Shown: piece by piece, positions 1-37,249 of the stretch | Position numbering within the stretch: position 1 is the first letter of the stretch | How the letters are laid out: each line of letters opens with the position of its first letter | Assembly (NCBI GenBank): GCA_902728285.1 | Contig: CACVBU010000096.1 | Span: forward strand, 241,937 to 305,936 | From: Clytia hemisphaerica | Taxonomy: Eukaryota > Cnidaria > Hydrozoa > Leptothecata > Clytiidae | DNA length: 64,000 nucleotides | Direction: 5' to 3' | Notes under the pieces: generated by a model | What the model was told of the DNA's origin: nothing | The model's database searches: none | What the model saw: the letters and a program-made list of their open reading frames with translations, nothing else | Position numbers and translations under genes: made by a program

Positions 1-1737
1 AATTCGTTACCTTTGAGACAATTGGGAAGTGTTCAGTCATGATAGCAAAACACCTTTAATTATACATTTACCTCTTTAGAGTTTCCAGAATTGACATATT
101 TATCATCAGGAGGATCGCCATCAGTTAAGTCGATCTTAAAGTGACATAAAATAATGATTATTATGATTTTACCAAAACTATTATCATCATCATCACTATA
201 TGTGATCTAAAACTGGGTAGTTATGTATGTTATGTAAAGTCAACATGAATAAAATACCACCCTACTACAAGAAAAAGATAAGGTACAGTCAACCAACCAG
301 CATCATGATTGTTTTATATTCATGCAGTTAATACACAACATTTACTAGTCGTGGTGATCGAAAATTCTTTTAGGAAAACAAAGGATGGTTGACCCAATCA
401 ATATTTTGTGTAGTAACTGCTGATATTTAATAGTAACTGCCATGCAGCTGAAGAATTTGGTAAGATATTGCTGAAAAATTTTGAATTATTTTTTTCGAAT
501 TTTCGCACTCTCAATCATGGTCAAATTTCCAACAGAAATATTTTTGTGTTAAATATAGTTTGCAACGCTGATTGGGCTCTTCCAGAAAAAAATTCTACAT
601 GGAGGGTGGAGGATACATATTGTCTGGGCGGTAGCAAAAAATCATCAAAATTTCCCTTGTCTGGGGGAGCGCGTTATAAGAAATTATGCGAGCCGACTTG
701 AAGTGTCCGCCTAAGTATTTGCATGGATCGCGCGGGCGATCAGCAAGGCGCGTATACTGCTTTGCAAATCTCCCTGATTTTTCTTCTTCCAAGCAAATAA
801 CAATAGAATGCCTAATTATCTCCCTTGGGTGTTTGACCACGCATCTAAATAAAAATAACAATAATGGTAGGGAAGAAGTGGGAAGATAAAAACATGCGAA
901 TTTTTAGATGTTCTGGTTGTTTTCTTTTCATACTTGCTTAGATATTCTTGTTGTTTTAATCTTCTTAATGACTTGGTTGCATCTTGTAAAGAACTAAAGG
1001 TATATCTTTATTTTGCTTCAATTCTTCTTTTCTGTTTGCTAATTTTGTAGTGCTGTTTTGGGTTGGAAGTTTTGTTTTGATAACTTTTTTTTTCTCCAAA
1101 ATTCACTTTGCACTTTTTCTGTCTAACAGACTTTACACCATACTGTCTATATTTTATGGTCAAGGCTGCCATTCTAAATTGATTTATCACTGCTTGGGTA
1201 CCATCTTGAAATTATGCATGTCATTATGTGCATATATTTATTTTCAGCCATGGGATTCATGCAGGAAAATCTGTCAACAGGGGTTCACCTGATTTCTAGG
1301 TGAACCAAGCTCTATAATTTTAGAACTTTGTCTGACTTTTTTTTTCTAAAATTCTGAGCTCGGACATCCAGGCTAACTCTTCTTGTGAATCCATCAAAAG
1401 TCATCAAAAGTCATCAAAGGTCAAATAATTAATCAATACAGAGGAAATTAGCACACTGAGGCCAATAGTTGCTGAAAAATTAGCAATCAAAATTTGGACA
1501 TATATACAGTCATAAGGTAGATACATAAGGAAAACTCTTTTTTTAAATGTTAAATTTTAAAAAAGTACAGAAAGGAAGAAAGACTGATATTAATGTTTAT
1601 TTACATCAGAACAAAGTATATAAAAGAACATAAGGCTTTGAGGTCCAAAAATCAAGAACATGCTTTGGAGAATCAAGAGTATATACCAGGTGTCCCAGAA
1701 ATAAAATTGGTTTAAATTTATTTCGGGTTTTAAAAAC
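1..1737. other. AT-rich region without recognisable gene
   Basis: I see no coding exon supported by composition or motif. Short open frames around 468-889 and 1008-1292 have no recognisable domain and a biased composition typical of non-coding AT-rich DNA. A short triplication of the tcatcaaaag word occurs near 1395-1420. Confidence 0.5.
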
Positions 1738-8489: not shown

Positions 8490-8668
8490 AATAATTATAT
8501 GTATGCGTTCAATTATGTAAATTTTATGATCTATAATTGCTAGATGTGATTTTGAAATTTTGATTTATTAACACTTACAGATCTGCCGCATGATGTTAAA
8601 GTAGGCTTTGTGCACAATGTCGAAAATTTAACACAAACAAACACACCGGAAAAGAAAAATTACTTCAC

Positions 8669-9058
8669 GTGTACACTGCAAATCAAATGATCAGTACCGT
8701 TTGCTTCAGTCCTAAAAAGCGCAAACTATTCAATGAATTACAAGAATCATGTGTGCCCATGAAAATTACCAAAACATCCAATTCTAGGGACTCGTTAATA
8801 ATCAATCAATGGTCACAGGTTTCTCTGCTAAAAAATCTACCATTTGAACATAATGGTGCAAGCTCTTCAAAAAGTTTTGTCTCCATCGCTAACATGGCAA
8901 GACTTGCCCCTTTCGAATTTGTCCGCGTAAAAGCAGAAGTCGTATCAGTTGAGGACCCAGTAGAAATGAAAGGCAGAGATGGCAACCCATTGGCCAAGCA
9001 GGTCGCTGTCATAAGAGATTCAACTGATTCTAGTACTGTTGTGCTCTATGGTGAATAG
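8669..9058 (+). CDS. OB-fold-like protein fragment, uncharacterised
   Basis: A 129-residue open frame. The first half (KKRKLFNELQESCVPMKITK) is basic. The second half, VRVKAEVVSVEDPVEMKGRD then KQVAVIRDSTDSSTVVLYGE, has the pattern of an RPA-type OB-fold strand set (VKVVSV...DSTG...L.LWE), which binds single-stranded DNA. The frame stops exactly after LYGE, where such folds normally continue, and a GTGAGT donor-like word follows at 9060-9065, so this may be the first exon of a longer gene. It resembles multicopy invertebrate proteins of unknown role (recalled). Confidence 0.5.
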   Translation: MYTANQMISTVCFSPKKRKLFNELQESCVPMKITKTSNSRDSLIINQWSQVSLLKNLPFEHNGASSSKSFVSIANMARLAPFEFVRVKAEVVSVEDPVEMKGRDGNPLAKQVAVIRDSTDSSTVVLYGE

Positions 9059-10590
9059 GTGAGTAGTAATGTTGTGTAATGGTGAGTAGATTGTTTGATG
9101 GCTGGAAAGAGCTACAAAATGGAAAATCTCAGACTGAGCCAATCGACTGGTGATAATTGCGAAGCGAATGTACATGAGCGAAGCAGTTTTGCTATCGTGT
9201 GTGCGTACCTTTAACTATCTATCCTTTCGACTCTCTATAAGGCAGGGAGAGGGGGAAAACGTTTCGAATCTCCGAGTTGCGCGACACCAAATATTTAGGG
9301 GATAAAATACAAAGGATAACCACCGAAATGGTAGCTCAAATTACCTCCGTCATATCAAATTTGACGTATACGTCAGAATGATACGAAGAACGAGTCCACC
9401 CTCCGTGACCCGTGACGTCAATATTTAGGAGATAACAAATGTGAAGAATATCCCGGGAAATGATAAAACAAATTACCTCCGTTATAGTAAATTGTTATAT
9501 TTGAATTTATTGCAAAACGAAAGTGATGCCATTATGCTCCCTGTCCTTTTTGACGCCACGGCGATAGAGATATCTTGACACTGATTCGTTCTACAGATTC
9601 GTTGTCATGGTTTCAGTTTATCATCAAAATGGTTATTCTTTTTTTTTCTGTCCGAATTTGGCTGAATCGCAATTCTGAGAAACTGCTTGGCTGTTATTTT
9701 GAATTTTTATTGAGTCATTACTTTCTGTTATCATCATTACAATTTACTATAATTTGTCCTGTTTTTCTTGGCTTCGATCCTTGGCATCGTTCTTTTTTGG
9801 TCATTGGTTTGGTTTCGACTTTCATTTCAATCAAATCGACAGCAAAGAAAGAAGGCACTGGCCTGTTATTGTTCATTGTTTGGTTGGTTGTTGGTCTTCA
9901 GATCAGGGAAGTCAATTTTAAAATTTATTGTGCTACAAATTACTTCTCAATTATGACGTCATAAATAATGACGTCATAATCACGTTTTCTAAAAAAAACT
10001 CAAATTCTGCTGAGAAAGAATTTAAGTTACACCGAATACGGTATTCTACATCCAAACACGCTTCCAAAAATGTATAGTTTGTTATGGTTTAGGAACTGGA
10101 ACTGGGGCGGAAAAATTAATGCAATTCTGGGACATGCATTAAGTTACCCGAGATAAAGTTTTCTGTATCAAAAATGTTAATTTCAACTGTAAAATTAATG
10201 ATGAGACTGTTCCATATTTATTAATTTATAAAAAATCAAAATCACAAAAAATTTCACCATCTATACCAAGCCCTGTACGCAATATAAAATTTGACAAAAA
10301 CATTTCTGAAGTCTCTATTAGCTCAAACTCAAAAACAACCAAAAATATGGATGCTACCTCTTCACTAAAAAAATGGATAGAGTTGATATGCTTTTGCAAG
10401 ACGAGTGTGACATTTACAAAGCTAATTTTTTGTCCCCTCAAAAAAATGAAACCACAAAGGCAATCAGGAAACGAAGAAAAATTATGCGAAGTGAAATCAA
10501 GGAAAAAAAGTCATGTATTGTATAATCTTCTACTAATTATAGACAGGAGAGCTCTGCTAAAGCAATATGTACATCTCCACTGAAAAAAAA
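9059..10590. other. Gap with diverged repeat pair and two CRE palindromes
   Basis: Two diverged copies of a block (atatttaggRgataa...caaattacctccgt) lie at about 9290-9352 and 9422-9484. The ORF at 9575-9964 is hydrophobic and lacks a motif. No convincing gene; the A-rich stretch 10200-10590 may be the decayed 5' part of the Helitron. Confidence 0.4.
9954..9976. promoter_or_regulatory. Pair of CRE palindromes TGACGTCA
   Basis: TATGACGTCATAA at 9953 and ATGACGTCATAA at 9968 give two perfect TGACGTCA octamers 15 bp apart (starts 9954 and 9969). Such sites bind CREB/ATF factors. No gene start is recognised beside them. Confidence 0.45.
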
Positions 10591-10735
10591 CTTGCTTGAT
10601 AAACCAGATTTAAAAATTAACGTCCCCAAATAAACCAGAGGGTAAAACACTTTTTAAAAATAACTTGCTTGATAAACCAGATATAAAAATTACGTTCCCA
10701 AATAAACCAGAGGGTAAAACACTATTTAAAAATAT
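10591..10735. repeat. 73-bp tandem duplication
   Basis: CTTGCTTGATAAACCAGAT starts at 10591 and 10664; the two 73-bp units differ by a few substitutions. It sits at the start of the Helitron N-terminal coding remnant. Confidence 0.85.
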
Positions 10736-11237
10736 TGATTTTCAACGCATTGTTATCCCTTCTGCATTTTTTAAAAAATCCTCAAAAGAAACATCATATA
10801 AGAACAAATCGAAAACTGGCAAACTTTTAAACAAGAAAAAGATAAATCCAGACAGGTTATTAAAAAGTCTTACTCAAAATAATTCAAAATTATCACACAC
10901 TTCTATGAACATCAATACTAATCGACAACCTTCTGACAACAATAACATTCCATTGAACAATCAGAATGATCATGAGATGAATGAAGAACCACGTGTGAAC
11001 GAAACAAATATTCAATTGAGTGACCATCATCATGGGCACCTTAACATCCATGAAAATAGATTTGTAAAAGAAGCTGTTTCAAACTTCATCAAAGGGGAAG
11101 ATAAGCATTCTATAGATAGATGTATCACATGCCAAGAAGTCAGGCCAGTATTCTTTTCCCATGTCCCTAAGAAGAAGGCGGATAAGTGGCAAGTAGAAGA
11201 TCAAAGATGCACTAGGTGTAAAGATGAATTTAATTAG
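10665..11237 (+). pseudogene. Helitron N-terminal region with C4-type zinc motif
   Basis: A lysine- and asparagine-rich leader is followed near the end by CITCQEVRPVFFS and CTRCKDEF, a C-x2-C...C-x2-C metal site typical of the region preceding the Helitron-like N domain. A stop at 11235-11237 separates it from the next frame segment (11328 on), which is in the same phase, so the two were probably one frame. Confidence 0.65.
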
Positions 11238-11327
11238 AAACAAAATCGAAAAAAAAATCATGCGCTACTTTTTTCAGGGATTCATTCACCTCCCACTGAT
11301 TGCTTCTGTGACAATGAGGGAAATCTG

Positions 11328-12401
11328 TTGCATAATAATCAACACTTTGCCAACACACCCTCTTTTCTCCAAGGCCTTACTTTTGTCGAAACATTGTTAA
11401 TTCGCAAAATATCCATTGCAATCTATGTTCATTGTTTAATGTACGGAATGTTGGCCTCAAAGGGCCATGCAGTTGCCATACCTTCAAATTTAAAAATATT
11501 CACCAAATTGCCTCAATTACCATCTGAAATTGGCATCATCTTGATAAGAAGTGGTAGCAATAATTCAAAAGCTTACATGGCCTCCCGACACAGGGTACAA
11601 AAAGCTCTTAACGGTTTGGTTTTTGGTATCCCTGCTTTTGGACTGGATAATCCACAACCTGGATATTCTCAATATAAAGGAAAAAATCACATTTCTGGGA
11701 AAATTTTAAAAGGAAAATATTTTTTGCATGAGCCCAATCCATATTATCATGATGTAATTATTGAGCAGGATCGCCTCTTAAACATTCCTGAAGATGGTGG
11801 AATTATACCAGGGCTTCCAATAGTTTCTGCTAATAAGTTCAATAATGAAAATAAAAATGAAGATATTGAAAAGCTTGCAGTAGATGAAGAATTAACAACA
11901 GCATCAGGGTTTGCAACTCAATTAACAAATTCTGATGCTGATGAAAATGTCAAGAATGCATTGCGTGCATTTCTGGGTGACAATGCTAATGTTGAAGAAA
12001 TTCTTGAAGCAGGTCAAGTAGCAGACATAGGAAGGCTGCACCTAAAAAAAAGAGAGAAACCTATTCCAGAATTATCAACCGATGGTTTTTTCACAATGTG
12101 TTATCCTCATATTTTTGTAAATGGGACATGTGTTTATACTATTAAAGCTGCAAGAACTTTGAAATATGAAGACTGGGTACAGCACATATGCTATTGCAAT
12201 GATAACAGAGTGCCTGCTCACAGATTTCTCAAATTTCACCTAATGAATATCAGTATGCGTAAAAAAGCTTTGGATCAAGGTTCCTTCTGTGTCAACCAAC
12301 AGATCAATAGAAACACATCACCAGGGATGAGTTACTTGAACCGTTACAAAATCAAGATAAAGCAATACCGCGTAAATTTTTATCATTCAGTGCTAACTTA
12401 A
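11328..12401 (+). pseudogene. Helitron-like N domain of Rep-helicase
   Basis: The start is MHNNQHFANTPSFLQGLTFV. YRKLSxxE-like context is represented by TFVETLLIRKISIAIYVH; further on come VAIPSNLKIFTKLPQLPSE, RVQKALNGLVF, then PELSTDGFFTMCYPHIF and HRFLKFHLMNISMRKKALDQ. These phrases match the order of the DUF6570-type and Helitron-like N domains that precede the HUH nuclease. The acidic insert at about residues 180-240 is variable in the family. The frame is lost near 12330. Confidence 0.75.
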
Positions 12402-12439
12402 TTGATACAGCTCCGTATTGGCGTGAACGAAAGCATGAA

Positions 12440-13557
12440 TTGGATTCCTTTTGTTTTTTCATGTTGAAAGAACACCAAGTTTATCCTACCTATTTTGATA
12501 CTTCCAGCTGTGCAGAGCATCACTGGATTCCACTGCATAACATTTTGATAAAGTACCTGTCTCAAATTACTGGAGATCTTGAAGCTGATCTCCAAGTAAA
12601 ATTCAAAAGTGACTCAAAGTTTCGACATCACAATTACATAAATACAGTATTAAAAGAGCTTTTTCAGTATGAAGAATTTTGGAGTCGATATAATTCGCCA
12701 AATCAAGAGGGCAGATTCATTCACACTCCTTATTTTTTTCTAAACAACACTATGATAAAGTCAAAGCTATATTATCTCAAGATAAAAATGACCCAACTGT
12801 AAATATTGCCAAAACATGCCTTCAAACAAATGAGATGAATGACACTGGGATTTTTTCTCCTGGGTTTGTATCCTTACACCCTGCAGGAGGTGAAGTGCAA
12901 CACAATGATGATCAAATACCACAATGGGTTCCTAACAAACAAAATTGGCCTTTGCCAGAAGGAAGTTTAACTGATGTAGATGCCAATGTGTTGAAAAAAT
13001 GTGTCTTATGTCAAGGAGATGATGAAGAATTAAAAGCATTCCATACTGACTTAGTCAATAAGGTTATGCTTCACACGTGTAGCTCGTACTGCCTTAGACG
13101 TAAGACTGTAACCACTGAGGAAAAAGATCAAGATGGTAAACCAATTGAGAGAGTCATTCGATACTGCAGACATCATTTTGGCGAATATGATGAAAAATCT
13201 AAAAGATCAACTGGTAAAGAGATCAATCCTTTTGAGCCAAGAATTACAGAGGGTAAAATATCCAGATTTGAAGGTAGAAACGATCACCCGAGGATAGTTC
13301 AACATATACTTCTAAGACCTTTGACATGGCTAGCCCAATGTGATACCCAGGCTATAGTCACTGATGATTTATTGGCATTGATTAAGTATATAACTGGGTA
13401 TTGTTGTAAAGGTAACAAATCTACACAAGACCTTATGGATATATACAAGGAAATACTGAATAAATCTGATCCAACAATTTCTCTGAAGTCTGTCGCTCAA
13501 AAACTGCTTTTGAAAATAGTTGGTTTTGTTGATACTCCATCTTCAGCTGCTGATTAA
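12440..13557 (+). pseudogene. Helitron HUH Rep endonuclease core
   Basis: Two frames. 12440-12802 has PTYFDTSSCAEHHWIPLHN (family: TFSCAEWHW), KELFQYEEFWSRYNSPNQE and EGRFIHTPYFFL, which aligns with the second Rep motif where a histidine pair binds the metal; here only one histidine of the expected H-x-H is obvious. 12835-13557 has VNKVMLHTCSSYCLRRK, HFGEYDEKSK, RFEGRNDHPRIVQHILLRP and the tyrosine motif LIKYITGYCCKG with two tyrosines four residues apart. Rep nicks the donor strand and becomes 5'-linked through these tyrosines. Confidence 0.8.
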
Positions 13558-13623
13558 ATCAATACTAAAGGTAAGCTATACAGCTGCAGCAGGAGATTTA
13601 AAAGAATTGCGGTTTCAGGCTTT

Positions 13624-14404
13624 TTGATCCTAATGGTAAAGATGGCAAAGTTACCAAAGATACCATTATTGACAAATTTCTTTCAGATAAAAGAAGGGAA
13701 GAAAATCCCTATATTACTTTGTACGACTGGGCAAAAAAGTGTGATTGTGCAAAGAAGTCACCCTGTAACAAAGATCATGTTCCTGTATTTACTGGATGTC
13801 AGCGATATGGCCAGCAGGTGAAGATTTTTCTAAAGAGCTGTTAATGAAATTCTCTCCTGGTACTTGGAGAAAAGTTGATGATTTGAAAAATGGATTTGAT
13901 ACATACACAGAATCATTTGCTCAATTTCTGGACTCTGACTATTGCCCTGAATCTGTAAGAATGATGCTGCAGTTTGCCAAGGCTGAATATGACAAGAAAG
14001 TTGCTAGACGCCAAAAGAGACAAAACAATCAGCCGAATCAACCAATAGAAGAAATAAATTTCTCTCAATCAACACTTGAAGGAAGTCAAGATAGTCAATC
14101 TTCACAAGGCTCTGTCGTTGATACAATGGGAAACCAACTTTTTAGAGATATTGCGAGAGAAAATAGACTATCAATTGAAGAAGCTTCTGTCGATGAGGAA
14201 GTGCTATACAATGATGGAATTGATTATGACTGGCACGCAAATGGCTTGATGTGGTTGGGTGTACAATCCTTTCCTGACACACTTATAGAAGAAACAAAGA
14301 ATTGGCTATCCGATGTATCAAAGCAAGCAAATGAAGCATTTGAGAGGGAAGGTAGACTTTGTACATTGCCAGATGTTGACCCAAAATTAGTAAATCTAAT
14401 CTAA
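13624..14404 (+). pseudogene. Helitron linker between Rep and helicase
   Basis: Two overlapping frame segments (13624-13821 and 13796-14404). The first retains KITKDTIIDKFL-like content across frames; the second has FSKELLMKFSPGTWRKVDDL, SFAQFLDSDYCPE and a basic-plus-serine-rich stretch. No catalytic motif is expected here. The stop at 14402-14404 is in frame with the helicase start that follows. Confidence 0.6.
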
Positions 14405-15904
14405 ATGCTAATTGTCAACTACAATATTCACCTTCTTTTGGATTATGCGAGAGGAAATTTTGCTGTAGGATATGAACATTGCAAACGACTAATTGTTCAA
14501 GGCTGTGCAGGTACAGGTAAGTCACAAGTAGTAAAAATTATCACCCGTCTTGTGCGTCGCATTTTCAAATGTAATAGATCCGTTTTAAATGTTGCTCCTA
14601 CTAGTGCAGCAGGTATTCTTTTACCTGATGGCGGAACTATTCATGAGTGAATATTCATATGTTAATATTCCTAGAAAAACTAAAGGAATAACTTTTGACA
14701 GTTGTCCCATGAATTTTGATCAAATCAAACATTTAAAAAGCCTGGTACTCGACAATGATGGCAAAAAACTCTCTCTCATGTGTCTAAATGCTGATGAAAG
14801 AGGAATGGTTGGACAATATGTTTTGGGTTGGTTTCATCAACGGTTTTCCCAACTTTCAATAAACCTATTAGACAGGGAAAGTGATCAAAGTATACCGTTT
14901 GGTTGCATTCCAACTTTTAATTTTTTTGGTGACATTTTCCAATTGAGAGCCATTGGGGAACGTAATCTGTATGATATTGTGTTGGATTCGACAGACCCTA
15001 TCGATTCTGCTGGTGGTTTTGCCTACAAAGATTTCCAGGATGTATTCATTTTAGAAGAAATCATGCGGGAACAGCCCAATCAACCAGCCTTGTTAAAACG
15101 CTTAGACAACCTGCGAACTGGCAATGTAACCAGAAAAGACTGGTAGGAGATAAATCAACGTTGTTATGATAATTTAACCACTGATGAACAAAGAAATTTT
15201 AACGACGAAACTTCGAATGTTATCTGTTTAACAGAAACATGGAAAGAAGCTAGCAGTTATAACCGCCGTGTTTTGAATTCAACAATGACCAATGGAGAAA
15301 GGACTATTTGTGCTGAATTCAAGAGTACTGGCTATGGTAAGCATCACAACAGCGCCAGAGAATCCATGTCCCAAATACCCAACAGAACAAGCATTGCCGT
15401 TGGATGTAGAGTTATATTAACAAGAAATCAAGGTTGTATGACCAGACTTGGGTTGAATAATGGTGCCATTGGTAAAGTTGTTAGTATAATCTATAAAACT
15501 AATATTAAACCTCCCCAGATGCCAGAGATTGTCGTTGTTGACTTTCCTAGATACAAGGGCCCTGTCTGGGACGAAAACCACCTCAGACTACCATGGAACA
15601 ATTGAATTGTGGGACGTCTTATACTGCATTCTTACGGGTTACACAAGATGAAGATTGGTGTTTAGCTGAATCTATTCCATTTGAGCGTTTAGAATATATT
15701 AATCGTCACCCACAATTGAAGCTCAGAAAGAAAGAAGAAGAAAGACTGCAAACTCTCTCAAAAAAGACAATTTCAGAAAACACATGCTCAATTCAAGAAT
15801 ACTTGAATTTACTACGCGAAGTTGACTTATTTTGCGATGATGGCATATCTGACGCTGACTGTACAGATCCGGATTGTGAAAGGTGTTTATTACACAAGCA
15901 TTGA
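14405..15904 (+). pseudogene. Helitron Pif1-type helicase
   Basis: Walker A is intact: QGCAGTGKSQVVK (14490-14540). VAPTSAAGILLPDGGTIHE corresponds to motif Ia. After a frame change come ADERGMVGQYVLGWFHQR and FNFFGDIFQLRAIGE (motifs II-III), then after a TAG at 15144-15146, in the same frame, SVAVGCRVILTRN-like text (IAVGCRVILTRNQG) and LGLNNGAIGKVV. Near 15600 the frame shifts and the expected SQG(L/M)T-type motif VI is missing, so part of the C-terminal RecA lobe is deleted. The last segment, 15593-15904, ends LFCDDGISDADCTDPDCERC. Confidence 0.8.
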
Positions 15905-16188
15905 GCAAATATAACCGATTCAATGTATTAATTTTCAAGTAGATTGAGTTGCCTATATTGCCTGTTTGTCCTTTTTCTTATCATTCAACTTGTTTTCAAG
16001 ACTCTTGATAGGCAACTACTTTATGTTATTATTGTTGTTATAAAGTTTTTAAAATTGAAAAATTGCCGTGTTAAATAAATACCCTTTTACTTTGAATTCT
16101 GTTAACAATTACTATTTAAAACATGTAATTGATTTCGTTTCACTGGCAATATTTTAAATCAAGGCTGATTTTCTTTCCTGCACATGGT
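15905..16188. other. Spacer between Helitron helicase and hairpin array
   Basis: AT-rich spacer with no ORF. It may contain the Helitron 3' region, but no CTRR terminus preceded by a clear single hairpin was found. Confidence 0.4.
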
Positions 16189-16447
16189 TAGAGACAGGTA
16201 TTTGATGGATGATGATAGTTGTTTCCATCAAAGGTGGATGTTGATAGTTGTTTCCACCCTCTGGTGACATGTTGATAGTTGTTTGTCACACACAGAGTAT
16301 GACACTGTGAATGTTGATAGTTGTTTTCACAGTGAGCCTTGTAACATGCTGACAGTTGTTTGTTGCAGTAAGGGTGTAAACTATGTTTCTAATGTAGCCT
16401 GACGCAGTGAAACAGCCTTGTACTCTAAAAGTACCTTCTGGTCTCTA
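16189..16447. repeat. Array of five hairpins with an invariant 16-nt loop, closed by an outer stem
   Basis: Five consecutive stem-loops share a loop of exactly 16 nt, consensus ATGNTGAYAGTTGTTT, while each has a different self-complementary stem. H1 16201-16232 has an 8-bp stem TTTGATGG/CCATCAAA. H2 16233-16258 has GGTGG/CCACC. H3 16264-16289 has GTGAC/GTCAC. H4 16303-16334 has CACTGTGA/TCACAGTG. H5 16337-16373 has GTAAC/GTTGC (one G-T wobble) extended by CCTT/AAGG across a 3-nt bulge. The array is bracketed by TAGAGACAGGTA (16189-16200) pairing with TACCT (16432-16436) and GTCTCTA (16441-16447), a 12-bp stem with one 4-nt bulge. Covarying stems around a fixed loop point to structure rather than simple repeat copying. 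Function unknown. Confidence 0.8.
16384..16431. other. Additional weak stems inside the array
   Basis: TGTTTC (16384-16389) can pair with GAAACA (16409-16414) around a 19-nt loop of unrelated sequence, and GTACT/AGTAC (from 16420) forms a small hairpin. They lack the shared 16-nt loop, so they are not counted as array units. Confidence 0.4.
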
Positions 16448-16554
16448 CTACTACTTACTACTATCCTTTTCAAGATAATTTTAGATATGTTAAATTTCTC
16501 AACAACATTTTAAATGTATATTTATATGATTAGCCACGAGATTTGCGTTCTTCT

Positions 16555-17164
16555 TTAAGGACATGTTTTTTTTACTGTACCAAAATGCCGATTTTCAACT
16601 AACCCAGTTCAAATTGGCACTAACAGAGACAGCTGAACCCTTTCTTATCGTTATTCAAAAATAAGAAAATAGATTAGTAGCCCTGTCCGATACTTTTTGT
16701 CCAATCTTAATAGCTTTTATGGAATTTAAGATATCGCTTTTTGAATCCGGAGTTTTTTGTTTAGTTGATAAGAAAGGAACGAACTAAAGAAAACGGGAAT
16801 TGTTAAAATGAGTGAAAAATGATTAAAAAAGTCTTGATCATAACTCACTCCGGTCTTTAAAAAAATTACTCCTCAGGCTGTTTTATGATTTTAGACTACC
16901 TCAGGAATGCATAGAAACCTCCTCAGGACCGAATAATGACTCATGGAGTGAGATATGATCCAAAACACTCCATGATTAATTAATCCTGAAATACTCCGAA
17001 TTTTGAAATTTCAAATAGCTCATTTTAAAGTCCTTCCCAAATTTCAATACATATCAAAATTTTGGGAAAATTCATCATGCGAATGACGAAATAATTAAAA
17101 TAAAGTGATTTTCACGATTTTCGAAAACCTGATTTTGGTACAGTCAAAAAAAACATGTCCTTAA
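16555..17164. mobile_element. TTAA-flanked MITE, piggyBac-like
   Basis: TTAA at 16555-16558 and 17161-17164 flank inverted ends GGACATGTTTTTTTTACTGT and its complement ending CATGTCC. The terminal repeat is about 32 bp with one indel. There is no ORF. A TTAA target duplication is the hallmark of piggyBac transposases, so this is most likely a non-autonomous piggyBac-type element. An inner inverted pair (CATAACTCACTCC / GGAGTGAGATATG) lies in its middle. Confidence 0.75.
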
Positions 17165-17780
17165 GCTATTTTATATTAATATCTCTCAAACTTTAGCGAA
17201 CAAATAGTTTAGGAGACCAGATGTTACAATCTAAGGTGGGGTACAAAATCCTATGGCTTATCCTTCACGTGGTGTACCCTGTTACGCATTTCCAATTTTC
17301 CAAATTGGAAATGCAAACTAAAAGCCAAGGCTATCCAAAGAAAGATAATTATTGTTAGTAAAGTATTTGAGATCGAAATGCATGCTATTATCTCTATTTA
17401 GATAGGATAAACCAAGAAAGAATTCGATACAGGGGCCCCCAGCGGTTCACATTCACTTTTGATTGCATGAATGCGTGAATCTGGGCTATTTTGTGCGTGA
17501 ATACATGAATTTACCCTCTTTTCCTCTGATTGTGTGCAGTTCTCCCGATTTGCCAATGTTTCTCTGATCTTTCCAGAAAAAATTTTCTGAAAAATCCGGT
17601 TATTGCGTGAAACTCAATAAAAAATTTTATGATTGCATGAATTGAGGGTCCGCTTTGGAAGGGGGGTCTCACACAGTGTGTCCATAAAAATTGATATTGA
17701 AATGCGTATCAAATTTATGACTTAAGAAATTGTTTATAGAATGGATGTGACTATTGATATGCCAAACTTTAAATATATTT
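17165..17780. other. Gap with a perfect palindrome and a short repeat cluster
   Basis: GCATTTCCAATTT-TCC-AAATTGGAAATGC at 17286-17314 is a perfect 13-bp stem with a 3-nt loop. Around 17460-17640 the word GATTGCATGAAT/GCGTGAAT recurs in a T-rich context, with ggggcccccag near 17432 and a ggggggtctc word near 17663, probably a decayed MITE. No gene. Confidence 0.5.
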
Positions 17781-17847: not shown

Positions 17848-18966
17848 ATGAGTACTGAATTATCAGAACCACCAATGAGTGACGACTCGCTGAGTGCAGA
17901 GATTGAGGCAGAGAAAGATGAAGAGATAGAAAGGCAAAGACAACAAATAGAAGAATTGGAGAAAGAACTAGAGAAGTCAAAAAAAAGAGAGAGAAAAAAC
18001 AAAAAGAACGCAATAACATATACAAGATACAAGAAAATGAGAGAGGAGAAGGGAGGGCCAACATCTTTAAGGTCATACAGATTTTATTTTTTTCATGAAC
18101 TTGATAATTTTCAAATTTTTACATTTTGGCTTTGTTTTGTGATTTTGGAATTGTATGTTACAAAATGAATGAGCTTGATACAAGTTTTCAAAAGGAGATC
18201 AGAACAACGGAGGCATTTATCGATGAGCAGTTTACAAATCATTTGAAGAAAGACATTATGGACGAGATTAAAATCTTCATTTCGAAAACAGTGAGTAACG
18301 AACTTGAATTAATGAAGCTGTCAAGTGATGAGAGCCTTAGAGGACCTGAACAAAGTTTTCATTCAGAGGGAAAGGATTTCCTGAAACATTTGAAACGGGA
18401 AATAGACTTTTTGAGAAAACAAGTTGAAAACCGTGACGATCTTATCTACGCTCTGTTACAAGAAAAATCTCTCAAAACGCAAAAAATTCAAAAATACAAA
18501 AATAGTGATGATTTTCAGTTCCCGAAAAATCCTATCAAACACTCTAAAAGCACTCAAAATGAACAAATTAGTCTTGATAATAGATACGACACACTTTTTA
18601 TTAAAGAAAATTCAAGTTCAATTGATGATGACATTAATGACATTATAATTGCACCCAAACAAAAGGGAAACATTACAACCCGTACATCGCGCAAAAATAA
18701 TTCAAAAAAAGGAGACACTGACAGTAATAATGGCAATAATAACAAAAGGGTTGTTGCAGTTGTTGGTGACTCGATAATCAAACACGTCAAAGGATATCAA
18801 CTCACAAATAAAGATAACAAAGTTGTAGTGAAAACTTTTCCTGGAGCAAAAACCGATTGCATGAAGCATTACATTATACCGACACTCAAACAAAAACCAG
18901 ACCTTGTAATCATACACTGCGGAACTAATGACTTGAAAACAAAAGAGCCGGAAGAAATTTCATAAA
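17848..18966 (+). pseudogene. CR1-like LINE ORF1 region: coiled coil then SGNH hydrolase
   Basis: A first frame (17848-18168) starts MSTELSEPPMSDDSLSAEIE and continues as an acidic/basic coiled coil. A second frame (from about 18168, MNELDTSFQ) has another coiled coil (LKREIDFLRKQVENRDDLIY) and then an SGNH hydrolase core: VVAVVGDSIIKHVKGYQL carries the GDS block and DLVIIHCGTNDLK the GTND block. SGNH esterase domains are known in ORF1 of CR1-like retrotransposons, where they may act on membranes or lipids. A TAA at 18963-18965 interrupts the same frame, which continues downstream. Confidence 0.75.
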
Positions 18967-19235
18967 ATGTTGTTGCCCTGGCGAGATCGGTGAACGAAAC
19001 AAATCAAAACACTGGCGTTATCGTGTCTGGCATTGTTCAAAGAGGAGACGACCTTAATCAGAAAGTAATGAAAGTAAACGAGATCTTGGAGCATCAGTGT
19101 AATGAATGTAACATTGGTTTTCTTGATAATAGTGGCATCGATCCCGGTAAGCACCTTAATGGCAGTAAACTGCATATCAATGTTAATGGGACCGATGAAC
19201 TTCAAAACAATTTGAAAAGGATTATAAACTGTTGA
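18967..19235 (+). pseudogene. SGNH hydrolase C-terminal part of the LINE
   Basis: Same frame as the segment before it: VVALARSVNETNQN, VIVSGIVQRGDDLNQKVMKV, NIGFLDNSGI and DPGKHLNGSKLHINVNGTDE. The last phrase supplies the D-x-x-H catalytic block (HLN in the family: D..HLN..G). The segment ends at a TGA (19233-19235) that is in frame with the endonuclease segment that follows, so ORF1 and ORF2 are in the same phase. Confidence 0.7.
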
Positions 19236-20993
19236 CGTGTTTCGCATGAACTTGACGATGAAATTGACGACCTCGATGGTACTGAAATTCTAAAAAATCC
19301 TTTACAAAACCTGAGCAAAAAAGATGGCATTTTATTTACATATCTCAATATAAACTCTATTAGAAACAAGCTTAAAGACGTAAAGGGAATCATCCTACCC
19401 CATGTGGATATCCTCTGTATAGCAGAAACTAAGATAGACTCTTCGTTTCCGGAATCCAAGCTTTTGATTAAAGGGTTCATAAAGCCAATTAGACTTGATT
19501 TCTCTAAAACCAGCGGAGGTTTGCTACTTTACGTAAAAAACCATCTCCCACTTCGCCAGCTTAAAGATAATCTTCTATCACCTGGAATTGAGTGTCTTAC
19601 ACTGGAGTTGAATTTGAGAAAAACTAAATGGCTCCTATTTTCTATTTGTCGTAATCCAAGTTTACAAAAGCTAAAACCGTTTCTTGAAGAATTAACAAAG
19701 GTTCTTGACCACCATAGTGACACGTATGAATATGTATTGGTTTTTGGAGATTTTAATGAGGAAATATCTGAGAAGAATATGTCAGAGTTCCTTGATGCAT
19801 TTTCACTGAAAAGTCTAATTAAGAAGCCAACATGCTTTTAGTCAGAAAAGGGTAGATGCATTGATTTGATCCTTGCAAATCGGGCACCTTGCTTTAAAAA
19901 AAGTGGGTCATTTGAAACTGGAATCAGTGACTACCATCATCTGATTTATAGCATGTTCAAAGCTAGCTTTAAAAAACCTCCTCCAAAGATAATTGAATAT
20001 AGATCCTTTAAAAATTTTGATGAAAAGGGTTTCCGGTCCAACCTCTGTCGTAATCTTGATTGTGACTTCTCAGACTTTGAAACTTTTAGCACAACTTTTG
20101 AAATTATTCTTGATGCTCATGCACCAATGAAAAAGCGAACCGTCCGGGGAAATCAAAAACCTCATATGTCTAAAACCCTACGTAAAGCAATCATGGTTCG
20201 CTCATACTACAAAAACAAAGCAAATAAGACCGGAAACCCCCTCTATAAAACCTTGTATCGCAAACAAAAAAATTATATTGTAAATATGAATAGGAAAGCA
20301 AAGAGAAAATACTTTCGTGATTTAGGGACATCAGAAAATTTCTGGAAATCTGCAAAACCATATTTCTCAAAGAAAGTCCAACATCACGAGAAAATCTTCT
20401 TGCTTGACGATTCAAATAAATCAAAACTTGTTGATGATGAAGCCTCCATAGCAAACATTTTTAACGACTATTTTGTAAATATTGCTTCCCATCTCGGCCT
20501 AAAAACTTCAGAATGCAGTCTTCCAGAAGATTCTGAAACCGATCCGCTTGAAAACCATCCTAGTATACTTCGCATCATCGAATCTCTATCTGCAAGCAAG
20601 TCTTTCTCTTTTAGCGAAGTAACTCCTGAAGATATCCATTGTATTATGCTCAAACTTAATCAAGATAAATCTGTCAGCGGTCCTTCTTCAATTAGAATAA
20701 TCAAAGTGGTCTCTGATATACTGTCAGGGCCATTATCAAGACTCGTAAACCTTGCCTTCAGTACTTCTAAATTTCCCCAAAGTCTAAAAAGGGCAAGGGT
20801 TACGCCTGTTTTTAAAAAGGAAGATAAATTTCTGAAGAAAAACTATCGGCCAATTAGTATATTACCAGCTTTTTCTAAAATATTTAAGAGAATTATGCAC
20901 GACCAACTTTCATCCTACTTTGATGGCATTTTTTATTCGAGACTCTGTGGCTTTAGAGCTAAGCACAGCACTCAACATGCTCTCAGGCATTTT
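19236..20993 (+). pseudogene. CR1-like LINE ORF2: APE endonuclease and truncated reverse transcriptase
   Basis: After the TGA the frame is open: YLNINSIRNKLKDVKG (APE motif I), DILCIAETKIDSSFP (motif with catalytic E), GGLLLYVKNHLP, and FGDFNEEISE (D-x-N). A TAG at 19839-19841 interrupts; the frame resumes as RCIDLILANRAPCF and TGISDYHHLIYSMF (SDH-like motif). The RT begins with KLNQDKSVSGPSSI, ARVTPVFKKEDK, NYRPISILPAFSKIFKRIMH and LCGFRAKHSTQHAL and is cut at about 20993, before the catalytic YADD region. The element is therefore 3'-truncated at the border with unrelated sequence. Confidence 0.8.
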
Positions 20994-21103
20994 AAGGCAT
21001 GTCCAAATTTTCCGTAATTTTTAAACTCCAATAGAACTCGCCAAGAGGTGTTCATTCATACCTTTTTGGACGCGTATTAGGGTGTAGAATATGAAAAGTG
21101 CTG
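20994..21103. other. Junction between LINE and MITE
   Basis: Short non-coding spacer; the translated frame loses similarity to reverse transcriptase after QHALRHF. Confidence 0.4.
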
Positions 21104-31115: not shown

Positions 31116-31674
31116 TGTAGCACGAACGTGCAAAAGATATTATTTATTTATAAGAAAAGCAATTAAAAAAAAAATTTATTATACGCATAGGTCATTATGA
31201 CGTCATTTGTCAATTAGTTTTTTATATTTATCAATTAATGTCTCCCGTGAGCATTCGAGAGCTCGCATATCAGATCTCACTTTTCAGCTTTTTTCACTCT
31301 CATTCAATCACATATCATAAGGGGTGAGTGTGGTATGAAGAGATTAGAATGTTTTCAAGAACTCAGTGAATAAATTTGTCAATCAAGTTTTCTACATTCA
31401 TTTTGAACATTTGCATTGATCATTTGAACATTTACATTGAACCATTTGGAATTATTTTCACATATCAATTCACATTTGGCAGGCTGGTAAGCTAATATTT
31501 TCTAAACTTTATTTTATATCAAGGCTTTGTCAACTCAAATTTTCTAAAGTAAGTTTTTCAATCAAATTTGTAATTTATCAACTTAGATCAATTTGTATCA
31601 AATTTATTTTTCAGTTTGAACATACATACATTCAATTCATAACGTTACGAACACCTGTGTCCGATAATTCCACA
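31116..31674 (+). repeat. 5' LTR of the BEL/Pao element
   Basis: TG...CA ends. It contains TATGACGTCATT (CRE-like, about 31197) and an inner GAACATTTGCATTGATCATT / GAACATTTACATTGAACCATT repeat near 31405-31445. Confidence 0.92.
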
Positions 31675-31860: not shown

Positions 31861-31913
31861 TCAAGCTGACGTTCACGTCATCCAATCAATTGACACACCC
31901 ATATATCAAATCA

Positions 31914-34900
31914 ATGAGAAGGAGTGATCGTTTGAAGACAAAAGACCAAATCAATTATAAGACCTTTTGTAAAATCGTGAAAGAACAACCTCCTACATCA
32001 GAAGTAGCTATCCCACACGCAATGGCTGCTGAAATTGCATCGTTAGCCATCGATTACAAGATCGTTCACGCTGAGCTTGCAGACTTCATAGACGAGCATC
32101 AAGTTGATCCATCAGCAAGCATCAAATCCCTGGATAAAGATTTCACATCTTTAGAGAAATTAAGGAACACCCTTCGAGATTTATTCATTCGTCTAGAAGA
32201 GTTATCCCCGATCGAAGAAGAATTCCGAAATGATTTTCTTCAAATGAAGCAAGGTGCCAAACTTCTACTAGCTGAAATCATCAAGACGTTGAAAGTAAAA
32301 AGAGAGAAAGAAACGAATCAAGACACTCGTTTGGTCAAAGACATCAGCTCAAGCATAACCTCCCTCAAATCATCACTGGAGAATGAACTCTCAGACAAAC
32401 TTCCAGAGCTAAGTGACGCAGACATCACAAAACGCAGCACCAATATCCCTCACCTCGAAAGACGTCTCACAGACCTTGACACCAAAATCACTCTACTTGT
32501 TCAATATGGTGGTCAGGACCAAAGAGGAGGGTATGAAACTTTTCTTCAGAAATTCCAACTCTACAAAACTAAACTAGACTCTGAACTTGAGAAAAGGGAA
32601 GTTGATAAACACAAAATGATGCTTGACAGTAGTTTAACGATCGAACTTAAGAAATTTGGGGGATACGACTCAACTTATGACATCTTCACCTTCAAAGAGA
32701 AATTTGAGAAATTCCATCTTCGAAATACTCCTAAACACTTGTTACCAGACTTGTTAAAAATGAATTATCTTGAACATACTGCATTGTTGTTAGTCAAGGA
32801 TTCAAATGATATTGACGAGATATGGAAGAGGCTTAAGAAATCATTTGGTGACCCACAAGTGATGCTTGACAAGAAGCTCCAACAATTCGACAAACTTAAC
32901 CTCACGCTCAAATCCAAAAACCTTGAGAAGACAATCGAATCACTTGGTGAACTCATCAGCCTCATCAAAGACACCATGAAACTCGCCAAACTACACAATG
33001 TTGAAGGAAGATTGTACTACAGCAACAGTCTCGAGAAGTTATGCAAGGTGATCGGTGAACACAGACAAAATCGTTGGTTATCAATCACTTGTGAAGAAGA
33101 CCTGGAAGGAGAAGATCTCTGGGGAAAATTCACCAGTTTCCTGGAGAAGGAGATTCGTATCACCCAAGGAAAAGTGTTGATCAAGAATCGAACTGACGAT
33201 CAAAAGAACGACCAACCCAAGAATGATCCACCTAAAAATCGTCAAAGTGGACACCACTCAGGAGGAGGGGTAAGAGATCCAAATTTATGTTATATCTGTG
33301 GTGCCACCGACCACGTCGTTACAAGTGGCCCAGGAGGTTCTAGACTCATCCAGTACTTCGTTTGTGAAAAATTTGTCAATCTCACCCCCCGTGAAAGATT
33401 CAACGAGTTAAAGGCTAAAGGACTTTGCTACCAATGTTTGTTCCCTGGAGCGTCTTTGTCCCATCCCAAGCATAAGGAAGGTCGTTGTCAACGAAATTTT
33501 ACATGTCAAAATCCAGTTCACAACAATAGCAGGTACCCAACCAGAAAGCACGTACTCGTATGTGAGGATCACAAGCATGAAAACGACCAACTTCTCACTC
33601 AATACAAGGATATGCTCTTGAGAAAACGAGAACAGCTTCCACCATTCGTCAAAGACATGGGACTTCACTTCAATCGACAAGAAGGCCATCATTCGTCCAC
33701 CAACAATGACAATGCCATCTATCAACTTCAAACGATTACAATCAACAACCAACTATTCCTGCTCTTCTACGATTCAGGATGTAGTGACTTCGTCTCAAAA
33801 TTCAACGCCATCCAACGACTACCCCCAAGCAACTGTACACAAGAATACGCTGGTCCAATTCAACTTGGTGGAATCGGTGACAGCACTACTGAATCTCCTC
33901 ATGGTATGTATACCGTATCCATCCCAACGTTCGACAACCAAACCGTTGCATCATTCACTGGCGTCTGCTTGGAACGACTAACAGCTACCTTCCCAACTCA
34001 TCAATTGGAAGAAGTCGAAAAAAATATCCAAGACGAATTTAGAAAAACCAACCAAGACGCCAGCTTACTACCAAAACTTCCAAGATCCATTGGAGGTGAT
34101 GTCGATTTTATCATCGGAATCAAGTATCTACGTTACCACCCAGAGATAATCTTCCAACTTCCATCAGGTTTAACAATCTATCGTTCATTCTTCAAAAACA
34201 GTGATGGATCTCGTGGTTTAATCGGTGGTCCACATCGTGTCTTCAATCAAATTGCTGCCCACGTTGGTATCACAAATCGAACAAGCTTCAGCTCCAGTCA
34301 GCTCAGAGCGTATCAAGCTGGCTATCGAATCAACCCAGATGTATCATTATTCGGCTTTAAAGACTCGGTGATAGACACCTACCACGTCCACAATGATCAA
34401 ATCTTCGTCTCCAAGACAGAGAAGAGATTCCACGAGGTCGAATCTGCCGGTTCCGAAGTGAGTTATCGTTGCATCAAATGTCGATCGTGCAAAGATTGCA
34501 AAAATCATGAAACCATCGAATCCATAAGCATCCAAGAGGAAGTCGAACAAAATCTTATCGATCAATCCGTCAAAGTCGACTTCGAAAAGCATCAGACCAT
34601 CGCATCTCTTCCTTTGTTACACGACCCGACAGTCAAACTCAATCCCAATCGATGGAAAATACTCAAAGTCTACGAGCAACAAGTGAAGAAGTTGTCAAAA
34701 TTTCCAATCGACAAGAATGACGTCATCGCCTCCGAGCAAAAGTTCCATGACTTAGGACATGTCGATTTTGTCAAAAATCTATCTAAGGAACAACAAATCA
34801 AATTATGTAACAGCCAAGTCCAGAAATTCATTCCATGGAGGGCAGTTTGGAAGACCAATTCCATCTCAACACCCTGTCGAGTAGTGTTTGACGCCTCCCA

Positions 34901-35744
34901 GCCTACTAGCAGTGGATATAGCCTCAACAACATCTGTGCCAAGGGTCGCAACAACATGAATAAGATGATCGAAATCCTCATCCGTTGGAGTATCAGACGC
35001 ATTGGTTATCATACAGATGTAAGTAAAATGTATAATACGGTTAAATTGAACGAAGACCATTGGTGCCTCCAGAGGTATTTGTGGTCAACCGATCTCAATC
35101 CAAACCAACCACCTCAAGAGAAGATCATCAAAACCTTGATCTATGGGGTAAAGTCAAGTGGAAACCAGGCTGAACTTGCCCTACGAAAGACAGCTGACCA
35201 CTCAAAGGACAAGTACCCTCGCGTCAACGAAGTTGTCAACAAGGACGTTTACGTCGACGACTGCATTTCAGGTGAAGATTCATTACAGGAAGCCATGGAA
35301 ACCGCCGACAGCTTAGAAATCGTCGTCAACAAAGGTGGGTTTCGACTCAAAGGATTTACCTTCAGTGGCAGTGACCCACCTGAAGCTCTCTCACATGATG
35401 GCAAGTCTATTTCTGTTGGGGGAATGGTCTGGTACCCAAAGATCGACAAACTATCACTTGACATCTCCGAAATGAATTTTGCTCGAAAGCAAAGGGGGAA
35501 GAAACCGACAGAATCATCAGGTACAATTCCATCTCGACTCACAAGAAGACACTGCGTTTCCAAAGTATCTGAAATCTTCGACCCAACTGGAAAGATGACT
35601 CCAATCACTGCTGGTCTCAAACTCGATCTGCATGAACTAGTCAATCACAAACTTCAATGGGATGACGTCCTTCCAGACTCACTTCGCTCACTATGGACAT
35701 CCCACTTCGACATGATCAAGAAGAAATCAAGACAAGGACATTAA
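31914..35744 (+). CDS. BEL/Pao Gag-protease-reverse transcriptase polyprotein
   Basis: I take the ATG at 31914 (MRRSDRLKTKDQINYK) as the start; the frame is open slightly further upstream. The first about 430 residues are an alpha-helical Gag (DUF1759-like: GYDSTYDIFTFKEKFEKFHL, NYLEHTALLLVKDSNDIDEI). Zinc-binding cysteines follow (CYICGATDHVV, CYQCLFPG, HKEGRCQRNFTC). The aspartic protease is LFYDSGCSDFVSKF (D-S-G). The RT has WRAVWKTNSISTPCRVVFDA, GYHTDVSKMYNTVKL and DVYVDDCISGEDS (YVDD), with HCVSKVSEIFDPTGKMTPI after it. It is long and unbroken, so this part could still be functional; the frame is lost at 35.7 kb. Confidence 0.88.
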   Translation: MRRSDRLKTKDQINYKTFCKIVKEQPPTSEVAIPHAMAAEIASLAIDYKIVHAELADFIDEHQVDPSASIKSLDKDFTSLEKLRNTLRDLFIRLEELSPIEEEFRNDFLQMKQGAKLLLAEIIKTLKVKREKETNQDTRLVKDISSSITSLKSSLENELSDKLPELSDADITKRSTNIPHLERRLTDLDTKITLLVQYGGQDQRGGYETFLQKFQLYKTKLDSELEKREVDKHKMMLDSSLTIELKKFGGYDSTYDIFTFKEKFEKFHLRNTPKHLLPDLLKMNYLEHTALLLVKDSNDIDEIWKRLKKSFGDPQVMLDKKLQQFDKLNLTLKSKNLEKTIESLGELISLIKDTMKLAKLHNVEGRLYYSNSLEKLCKVIGEHRQNRWLSITCEEDLEGEDLWGKFTSFLEKEIRITQGKVLIKNRTDDQKNDQPKNDPPKNRQSGHHSGGGVRDPNLCYICGATDHVVTSGPGGSRLIQYFVCEKFVNLTPRERFNELKAKGLCYQCLFPGASLSHPKHKEGRCQRNFTCQNPVHNNSRYPTRKHVLVCEDHKHENDQLLTQYKDMLLRKREQLPPFVKDMGLHFNRQEGHHSSTNNDNAIYQLQTITINNQLFLLFYDSGCSDFVSKFNAIQRLPPSNCTQEYAGPIQLGGIGDSTTESPHGMYTVSIPTFDNQTVASFTGVCLERLTATFPTHQLEEVEKNIQDEFRKTNQDASLLPKLPRSIGGDVDFIIGIKYLRYHPEIIFQLPSGLTIYRSFFKNSDGSRGLIGGPHRVFNQIAAHVGITNRTSFSSSQLRAYQAGYRINPDVSLFGFKDSVIDTYHVHNDQIFVSKTEKRFHEVESAGSEVSYRCIKCRSCKDCKNHETIESISIQEEVEQNLIDQSVKVDFEKHQTIASLPLLHDPTVKLNPNRWKILKVYEQQVKKLSKFPIDKNDVIASEQKFHDLGHVDFVKNLSKEQQIKLCNSQVQKFIPWRAVWKTNSISTPCRVVFDASQPTSSGYSLNNICAKGRNNMNKMIEILIRWSIRRIGYHTDVSKMYNTVKLNEDHWCLQRYLWSTDLNPNQPPQEKIIKTLIYGVKSSGNQAELALRKTADHSKDKYPRVNEVVNKDVYVDDCISGEDSLQEAMETADSLEIVVNKGGFRLKGFTFSGSDPPEALSHDGKSISVGGMVWYPKIDKLSLDISEMNFARKQRGKKPTESSGTIPSRLTRRHCVSKVSEIFDPTGKMTPITAGLKLDLHELVNHKLQWDDVLPDSLRSLWTSHFDMIKKKSRQGH

Positions 35745-35746
35745 TT

Positions 35747-36898
35747 TACCGCACAATCATTCCTGAAGATGCACTCAATCTCGACATCTCAACCCTCGAC
35801 TTCGGTGATGCAAGCCCATCACTAGCTTGTGCTGCCATCTACACTCGTATTCAAAGGAGAAATGGTACGTATTCGTCACAACTTGTATTCGCACGATCAA
35901 AACTCGTTCCTCAACCCTCAACACAACCTCGAGCAGAGATGTTTGCAGCATTGATAAACGTACACACTGGTGAAGTTGTCAAGAGAGCATTCCAACAACA
36001 TCACAAGGGATGCTTGAAAATCAAAGACAACACCATCGTGCTTCATTGGATATCAAACACTGAGCTTCAACTCAAGCAGTGGGTTCGAAACAGAGTAATC
36101 GAAGTCCATCGACTCACAAACATCGAAGACTGGCGATTCATCGACTCCAATCAAATGATGGCTGACTTAGCAACAAGGAGAGGTGTCCAGTTATCAGAGG
36201 TCCAGCCAAACTCAGAATGGTTCGTTGGCCAAGACTGGATGCACCAAGATGAATCCAAGTTTCCTGTTAAAAAGATTGATCTTGCATGGCCTGTAAAGGC
36301 ATACTGCAATCACCACAGACGATCAACAATCAAGCTTTGGTTGACGGTCTTCTGCTGCATGACCACTTCAGCTACATCAATCAAGATCATGGACGACTAC
36401 AGCACTGTCGCCTTCATCCAAGCGTTCGTACGATTTTCATCTCACCATGGTTATCCTCAGAAGCTCTTCATCGACTCTGGTAGCCAACTCATCAAAGGAT
36501 GTGAAGACGTCAAAATCGACTTCCACGACTTACGAGCCAGCTTCATCGCAACAACGACTCCATTGAATTCGACATTCAGTTCAGTTGTGCACACAACTCC
36601 AAGGGAAAGGTTTGAACGCCAAAATCAAGGAGATCAAAGATCGATCGAGAGGACGATTCTCAATCACGACACTCAATCCTTCATGGGAAACGGTGGCATC
36701 CGAGATTTCGAACAGTTCAATAACATGCCTCTCGCACTTGGTTCCATCACATCTGATTTCGAAAGCATGGACCTTATTACACCCAACAGACTTCTTCTCG
36801 ACGCAACAACGAGAGAGGTCCCATTGGTCCAGTCAACGTTCCATCAACATTCAACAAATCATCCAAACGAATATCGACATCTTCAACACGTGGTTTGA
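35747..36898 (+). pseudogene. BEL/Pao RNase H and integrase remnant
   Basis: After a frame change: SLACAAIYTRIQRRNGTYSS (first D region altered), QPRAEMFAALINVH (E), IKDNTIVLHWISN (D) and MADLATRRGVQLSEV. The integrase then begins abruptly: KLWLTVFCCMTTSATSIKIM, DYSTVAFIQAFVRFSSHHGY and LFIDSGSQLIKG (the second catalytic Asp region). The zinc-binding HHCC part and the first catalytic Asp are missing between about 36260 and 36330, so an internal deletion is likely and integrase is dead. Confidence 0.75.
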
Positions 36899-37249
36899 AA
36901 ATGTTGATCTCACATGTCCCCAAGCTTATTCACAACCAAAGTGGTTTAAGAACGACAAGCACTTGAAAAAGGGTGATATTGTCCTTTTCCTTAAGAATGA
37001 TTCTCCATTGCCAAGACATATCATCTGGAAGAATAAAAATGTTCATGTTAGTAAAGATGGTAAAATTCGTAAAGTTGATGTTGAGTATGTCAATTCAAAT
37101 GAAACTGCCAAAGTAATACTACCAGATTGTGTCAGAGATTTAGTTGTAATTCATCATGTTGATGAAATGGACGTTTTGCAAGAACTCAATAAAATGTTCA
37201 GAACTGACTGTATCTGGATTGGACATTTCACTTTTCCACGTTGGGGGAA
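36585..37249 (+). pseudogene. BEL/Pao integrase C-terminal domain
   Basis: Another frame: HPTDFFSTQQRERSHW-like text, then FNTWFENVDLTCPQAYSQPK, WFKNDKHLKKGDIVLFLKND, HIIWKNKNVHVSKDGKIRKV and VEYVNSNETAKVI. This is the DUF5641-type beta-barrel at the end of BEL/Pao integrases. The translation then runs into the right LTR. Confidence 0.7.

Follow-up and report, generated by a model that had tools for sequence, protein, structure and literature searches.

The 64,000-nucleotide stretch of Clytia hemisphaerica DNA analysed here, which we refer to as the window, carries five hairpins in which the loop is kept while the stems differ, and comparison with other copies in the genome shows that this array is real and conserved, a multibranched element with constant loops that belongs to a transposon lineage. 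Compensation in the stems of 24 arrays, together with loops that are the slowest-changing part, supports the selection on structure that was put forward in the original prediction. As judged from its sequence, the array suggests an element whose loops are read, probably in partnership with a small adjacent gene that we call ORF2.

The hairpin array in the window

A scan of the window found exact matches to the loop pattern ATGNTGAYAGTTGTTT at five positions (16209, 16238, 16269, 16311, and 16346), while all remaining matches in the window carry 2 or 3 mismatches. As had been predicted, each of the five loops is bracketed by its own complementary arms (Table 1), but the loops are not all identical as had been claimed; the letters are the same in three of the five units, with unit 1 having A at the N of the pattern and unit 5 having C at the N and C at the Y. 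The first A and the last T of the loop can pair, which leaves an open loop of 14 nt. The G-T wobble described for the fifth stem is present, whereas the gap before unit 5, given earlier as 2 nt, is 6 nt by our count, or 3 nt if the stem is counted from CTT. Random 16-mers are flanked by five contiguous pairs in 1.6% of cases in 15901-17400 and in 0.9% in the window, and the chance of finding stems on all five units is therefore about 1e-9. The energy signal is modest, as the + strand RNA fold of 16180-16455 has a z of -1.8 and 10 of 200 shuffles are equally low, and it is covariation rather than folding energy that is decisive.

Table 1. Positions of the array, its outer stem and the neighbouring Helitron features in the window.
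Feature	Position	Strand	Details
RepHel gene of host Helitron	11238-15904	+	Several broken frames; DUF6570 near start; helicase part; IHSH (HUH-like) and YxxxY recognized by eye
Outer stem, 5' strand	16189-16199	+	TAGAGACAGGT; pairing options 16380-16391 or 16432-16447
Hairpin unit 1	16201-16232	+	Stem 8 bp, arms TTTGATGG/CCATCAAA, loop 16209-16224
Hairpin unit 2	16233-16258	+	Stem 5 bp, GGTGG/CCACC, loop 16238-16253
Hairpin unit 3	16259-16297	+	GTGAC/GTCAC plus outside CTCTG/CAGAG, loop 16269-16284
Hairpin unit 4	16303-16334	+	Stem 8 bp, CACTGTGA/TCACAGTG, loop 16311-16326; other stem in subtype B
Hairpin unit 5	16338-16373	+	GTAAC/GTTGC, one T-G wobble, loop 16346-16361; subtype B has another, covarying stem
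Outer stem, proximal 3' strand	16380-16391	+	ACTATGTTTCTA; consensus fold
Outer stem, distal alternative 3' strand	16432-16447	+	TACCTTCTGGTCTCTA; likeness to L172 and L173 stops just beyond
Second conserved block	17236-17281	+	One hairpin, GGGTACA/TGTACCC, loop about 27 nt, nearly invariant
ORF2 start (second Helitron gene)	17848-18084	+	Cut by LINE in window copy

Copies in the genome, covariation, and two subtypes

In the 417-Mb genome the loop pattern occurs 142 times, compared with 10 times for the reversed pattern. A DNA search with 16150-16480 returned 40 rows, which correspond to 35 array places, one duplicate row, and four weak secondary rows, and 24 of the 35 places, including the window, were analysed in detail. 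These 24 arrays hold 115 units, 37 of which are distinct as 32-mers, and a stem of at least five contiguous pairs is present in 108 of the 115. The seven units that lack one are two in L157, where a deletion between two loops breaks the stem, one each in the truncated copies L162, L164, and L170, one in L159, where a 3.4-kb insertion splits the unit, and one in L177, where the stem was lost by a point change. Five units in unchanged order are found in 20 of the 24 arrays, and the remaining four have lost units (three are left in L157 and four each in L162, L164, and L170), a distribution that speaks against the suggested insertion of a cassette with inverted flanks.

Among the 37 distinct units, 95.9% of stem cells are paired compared with 62.4% in shuffles, and the covariation score is 0.866 compared with 0.233, with none of 500 shuffles as high on either pairing or score (scored on a six-pair helix, one pair of which is invariant). 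Two of the five covariation measures did not exceed the shuffles: pairs changed on both sides were at least as frequent in 279 of 500 shuffles, and further pair types in 293 of 500. This is expected, as many pair types are already present among the stems of different units. When the unit was made into a covariance model, it gave 38 matches in known arrays, drawn from 13 sources, and no other match was better than E 0.3.

The arrays fall into two subtypes, with 13 assigned to A (the window, L151, L157, L158, L160, L162, L163, L166, and L170 to L174) and the other 11 to B. Units 1 to 3 are common to both, while stems 4 and 5 differ. Stem 5 of subtype B itself varies between CCTGAAAC/GTTTCAGG, CCTGGAAC/GTTTCAGG, which has a wobble, and CCTAAAAC/GTTTTAGG, in which both sides are changed. 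Subtype B also has an extra variable hairpin between units 4 and 5, one pair of which is broken in three of nine copies. Doubly changed pairs reported by RNAalifold are few within each subtype (2 of 65 within B and 2 of 78 within A). Between 10 A and 9 B copies the mean difference is 4.5% in the loops, 17% in the stems, and 56% in the linkers, compared with 33% in the 73 nt upstream, 49% in the downstream part, and 67% in the outer 5' strand. The ORF2 types also differ between A- and B-type arrays in the copies examined.

An outer stem closing the array had been predicted as TAGAGAC+AGGTA with TACCT+GTCTCTA; an outer stem does exist, but the distal partner named there is one of two. When 10 subtype A copies are folded to a consensus, the proximal pairing (16189-16199 with 16380-16391) is chosen, and this pairing corresponds in position to the outer stem of subtype B, whereas the distal pairing is chosen by the single-sequence fold of the window copy. 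As the distal partner in subtype A is conserved too and is mutually exclusive with the proximal one, a switch between the two outer stems is possible in this subtype. From A (TAGAGACA-GGT with ACC-A-TGTTTCTA) to B (AAGTTGATG/CATCAACTT), the outer stem is swapped for an unrelated complementary pair. Variation inside either subtype consists of wobbles plus one broken end pair (in L156), so support for the outer stem comes from its replacement between subtypes.

The loop pattern was also found in at least 120 stretches of viral contigs, with one match in each of the 80 listed, and these were set aside as occurrences of a chance word. Two loops in a row were not found in the genome contig collection, and six array matches in phage records are at chance level. 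In Rfam 15 there was no match in the window at the gathering score; nine matches in 15900-17450 at E values up to 10 were all far below it.

The host Helitron and its association with ORF2

Helitrons encode an HUH Rep with a two-tyrosine YxxxY motif fused to a PIF1-type helicase, and this combination is found in the host element, whose gene we refer to as RepHel. The motifs IHSH and YITGY were recognized by eye in the frame 12694-13557, Pfam identified DUF6570 in the window, and the PIF1 helicase domain was found in the relatives L151, L152, and L174. Helitron_like_N matched a homologue (P0007) but no scanned piece of the RepHel lineage of the window. The proposed link to Helitrons holds among the other copies as well, as RepHel sequence lies upstream of 22 of the 24 arrays (it was not found in the stretches around L163 and L170) and ORF2 lies downstream of 20 (all but L156, L158, L160, and L164). 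The RepHel of L151, which belongs to the lineage of the window, is only 37.6% identical over 644 aa to that of the L152 lineage, although their arrays match.

Canonical Helitrons have a 5' TC and a 3' CTRR end and insert between A and T. It had been suggested that the array is an amplified Helitron 3' signal, but the copies in five pairs (L151-L166, L152-L168, L153-L177, L157-L173, and L175-L176) remain similar across ORF2, over 2 kb beyond the array, and the array does not have the location of a Helitron 3' terminator, whose palindrome lies some 11 nt short of the 3' end. A Helitron 3' end at 16441 was considered separately and rejected: CTGG followed by T is present there in the window and L172, but L173 has TTGG and subtype B has neither, and no examined copy ends at this position (L164 breaks off between units 4 and 5).

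ORF2 is on the same strand as the array; its N-terminal part is rich in E and K, and its tail, YKKMRxxxGGPxSxRSYxF, is conserved. It had no Pfam match at the cut-off, and protein searches found as relatives only three Clytia hemisphaerica proteins among the 7999 scored candidates sharing most words (a second search had 5 candidates). ORF2 and RepHel, searched with one protein each, had no match in viral contigs. The second conserved block is located before ORF2; its stem is doubly compensated in L152 and mismatched in 2 of 12 aligned copies (L160 and L162). Polyadenylation signals had no consistent placement in the 9 copies examined. In the window, ORF2 is interrupted by a LINE (18085-21017), the frames of which look by eye like an endonuclease and a reverse transcriptase. 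A 357-bp insertion between array and ORF2 (16729-17086) is shared by the window and L158 and is absent from L151, L163, L166, and L171.

To compare presence across the genome, 135 helicase rows were merged into 116 places, and an array was scored as present up to 3 kb away and ORF2 up to 5 kb away. Both were found at 20 places, neither at 89, the array only at 6, and ORF2 only at 1, where absence means not found by these searches, which would miss arrays with other loops and remote ORF2. Two of the array-only places (C793 and C792) have ORF2 5.5 and 6.9 kb away, and another (C557) has an ORF2 of a different subtype (in L176). Viewed from the 35 array places, ORF2 lies within 2 kb in 26 and within 10 kb in 28, and a helicase lies at most 3 kb upstream in 26; conversely, 16 of 44 ORF2 places lack an array within 10 kb, and many of these 16 are remote relatives. 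As the array copies are related, these co-occurrence counts are not independent events, and the co-occurrence of array and ORF2 could be mere linkage. RepHel kinship does not predict the presence of either. Where the helicase is at least 77% identical to that of the window, the array is found at 6 of 13 places (5 of these with ORF2); at 60-76% identity, neither is found at any of 26; and at 40% identity or less, the array is found at 20 of 75 (15 with ORF2). In L157, L160, L173, and L174, a subtype A array adjoins sequence from the RepHel lineage of L152, which indicates that the 3' part of the element has been exchanged.

Some further repeats are found around this element. A repeat of about 800 bp with fixed ends (9157-9953) occurs at many genome places (the best 40 of 1086 first-look candidates were scored) and also upstream of several Helitron copies. 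In addition, contig C430 contains stretches 100% and 99.9% identical to 8600-11400 and 13957-15057, which points to either a recent duplication or an assembly duplicate.

Proposed function and alternative explanations

We propose, with confidence just short of even, that the array is a functional structured element of the + strand that works single-stranded, most likely as RNA between RepHel and ORF2, and that its loops are read, likeliest by the ORF2 product. The array would lie in the untranslated stretch between the two genes and act as + strand RNA, with the outer stem closing a multibranched domain that displays five copies of one loop (14 nt inside an A-T pair). A protein or RNA would recognize the loop letters while the stems would serve for display only, and the fivefold display would allow multivalent binding. 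The likeliest outcome would be control of RepHel or ORF2 expression. Pairing and folding counts lean toward + strand RNA. On this strand the distinct units contain 10 G-T cells compared with 3 A-C cells, an excess that comes from a small number of independent events (roughly 7 to 9 compared with 2 or 3 when counted by hand), with 2 of the 10 G-T cells in disrupted units (L157 and L159) and 2 of the 3 A-C cells in truncated copies. As RNA, 36 of the 37 distinct units fold on the + strand and 32 on the - strand, whereas as DNA there is no strand difference (33 and 32 of 37). Stems of five pairs that enclose 14-nt loops have little stability as DNA, with a mean of -3.3 kcal/mol compared with -6.5 kcal/mol as + strand RNA. 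When both strands were folded, as had been recommended, the five arrays tested did better than shuffles on either strand, whether treated as RNA or DNA, and energy therefore does not discriminate between the two.

The main rival to RNA reading is reading as single-stranded DNA during rolling-circle transposition, in which hairpins on the displaced + strand would be recognized through their loops by RepHel or ORF2 and would pause, load, or stop the machinery. That the host element is a Helitron fits this, as do the DNA folds above, and the 3' hairpin of Helraiser, which is loop-specific with an exchangeable stem, is a strong precedent (PMC4778049). We nonetheless consider it rather unlikely, as the array is internal, more than 2 kb from the element end in the five copy pairs, several of its stems are weak as DNA, and it does not follow RepHel (0 of 26 at 60-76% identity compared with 20 of 75 at 40% or less). 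The likeness among arrays might instead have come about by recombination that carried a structured module from one Helitron lineage to another, and so show exchange rather than constraint. The four copies that join one RepHel lineage to subtype A point this way, and likeness between the window, L172, and L173 falls off in all three pairings immediately beyond the right end of the outer stem, reaching background in the two that involve the window. Such exchange explains the distribution but not the compensation within and between A and B; as a full account we therefore find it improbable, and it may hold in addition.

The loop could also be a double-stranded DNA site for a transcription factor, with stems that are incidental. 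An array 0.37-1.5 kb upstream of ORF2 in 8 copies, with repeated 16-mers, would fit an array of sites, but complementary arms would not be needed, and yet compensation is seen in the stems and both strands of the outer stem changed together; this explanation is disfavoured and seems to us improbable. An ordinary minisatellite or chance is almost certainly not the answer. Tandem Repeats Finder does report a period of 29 nt with 2.6 copies, but a minisatellite would repeat the whole unit, stem and loop, and here the stems are unlike between units, as the original prediction had pointed out in arguing against simple tandem duplication; moreover, unit places are kept in 20 of 24 arrays, the deletion between loops in L157 breaks a stem, and stems on all five units would hardly arise by chance.

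Several known systems share features with the array. In Helraiser, stem exchange kept about 90% of activity while a loop change was equivalent to deletion of the hairpin, so the canonical Helitron 3' hairpin is similar in that the loop matters and the stem is exchangeable (PMC4778049). The Helraiser hairpin is a single 19-bp palindrome, located 11 nt before the 3' end (PMC4778049), whereas Clytia has five internal hairpins with 14-16 nt loops and an outer stem, located between two genes. Helentrons and DINE-1 are also rolling-circle elements with palindromes and extra genes, but as far as the available part of PMC4067079 describes them, their repeats are terminal or subterminal, and a loop-constant array is not described there. 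The Helitrons presented in these two papers have a single terminal hairpin or palindromes at their ends (PMC4778049, PMC4067079). A loop-constant array in a Helitron was not named in titles or abstract openings among the literature matches listed. With its constant loop and free stems, the evolutionary pattern of the array would fit a hairpin that is read through the loop and has an exchangeable stem.

Smaug recognition elements, constitutive decay elements, and iron-responsive elements likewise combine a conserved loop with a free stem, often in untranslated regions, and are read by proteins. Their loops are much shorter than the 14 nt of Clytia and they belong to host genes, and we know of none of these mRNA hairpin classes with this 14-nt loop. 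The nonanucleotide origin hairpins of geminiviruses and circoviruses also have a constant loop and a free stem and are read by an HUH Rep, but these mark the nick site at the origin, whereas the five hairpins of Clytia lie away from the ends.

To our knowledge, how Helitrons regulate themselves is an open question, and here a covarying array changes more slowly than the transposase and accompanies a new gene. If it is read through its loops, the array would be a natural multivalent loop tag with freely chosen stems, in a laboratory jellyfish with a sequenced genome. It is conceivable, though doubtful, that it forms part of a Helitron-borne two-part control, in which a small ORF2 protein of no known family, a multivalent nucleic-acid platform of five hairpins with one loop and free stems, and a sixth conserved-loop hairpin close to ORF2 are exchanged from one Helitron lineage to another as a module.

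Two further lineages were sampled, with one stretch each. L178 (C784), which follows a RepHel with 75% identity to the helicase of the window, has three 163-nt tandem repeats (1-900, minus strand) that lack the 16-nt loop; they contain a recurring ATATGTTAA, some copies of which lie in the loops of hairpins that are only partly convincing, and this recurrence would point to different loop codes in different lineages. No array was found in L179 (C480), after a RepHel 38% identical. At 121-373 of L179, following this more distant RepHel, a 19-nt inverted repeat (95%) surrounds 215 nt, and TTTAGCGAACA of the same stretch recurs before the second conserved block in the lineage of the window. Elsewhere in the window, long frames at 31890-37349 are flanked by the same period-21 tandem repeat (31402-31448 and 37534-37580), which looks like another mobile element with terminal repeats.
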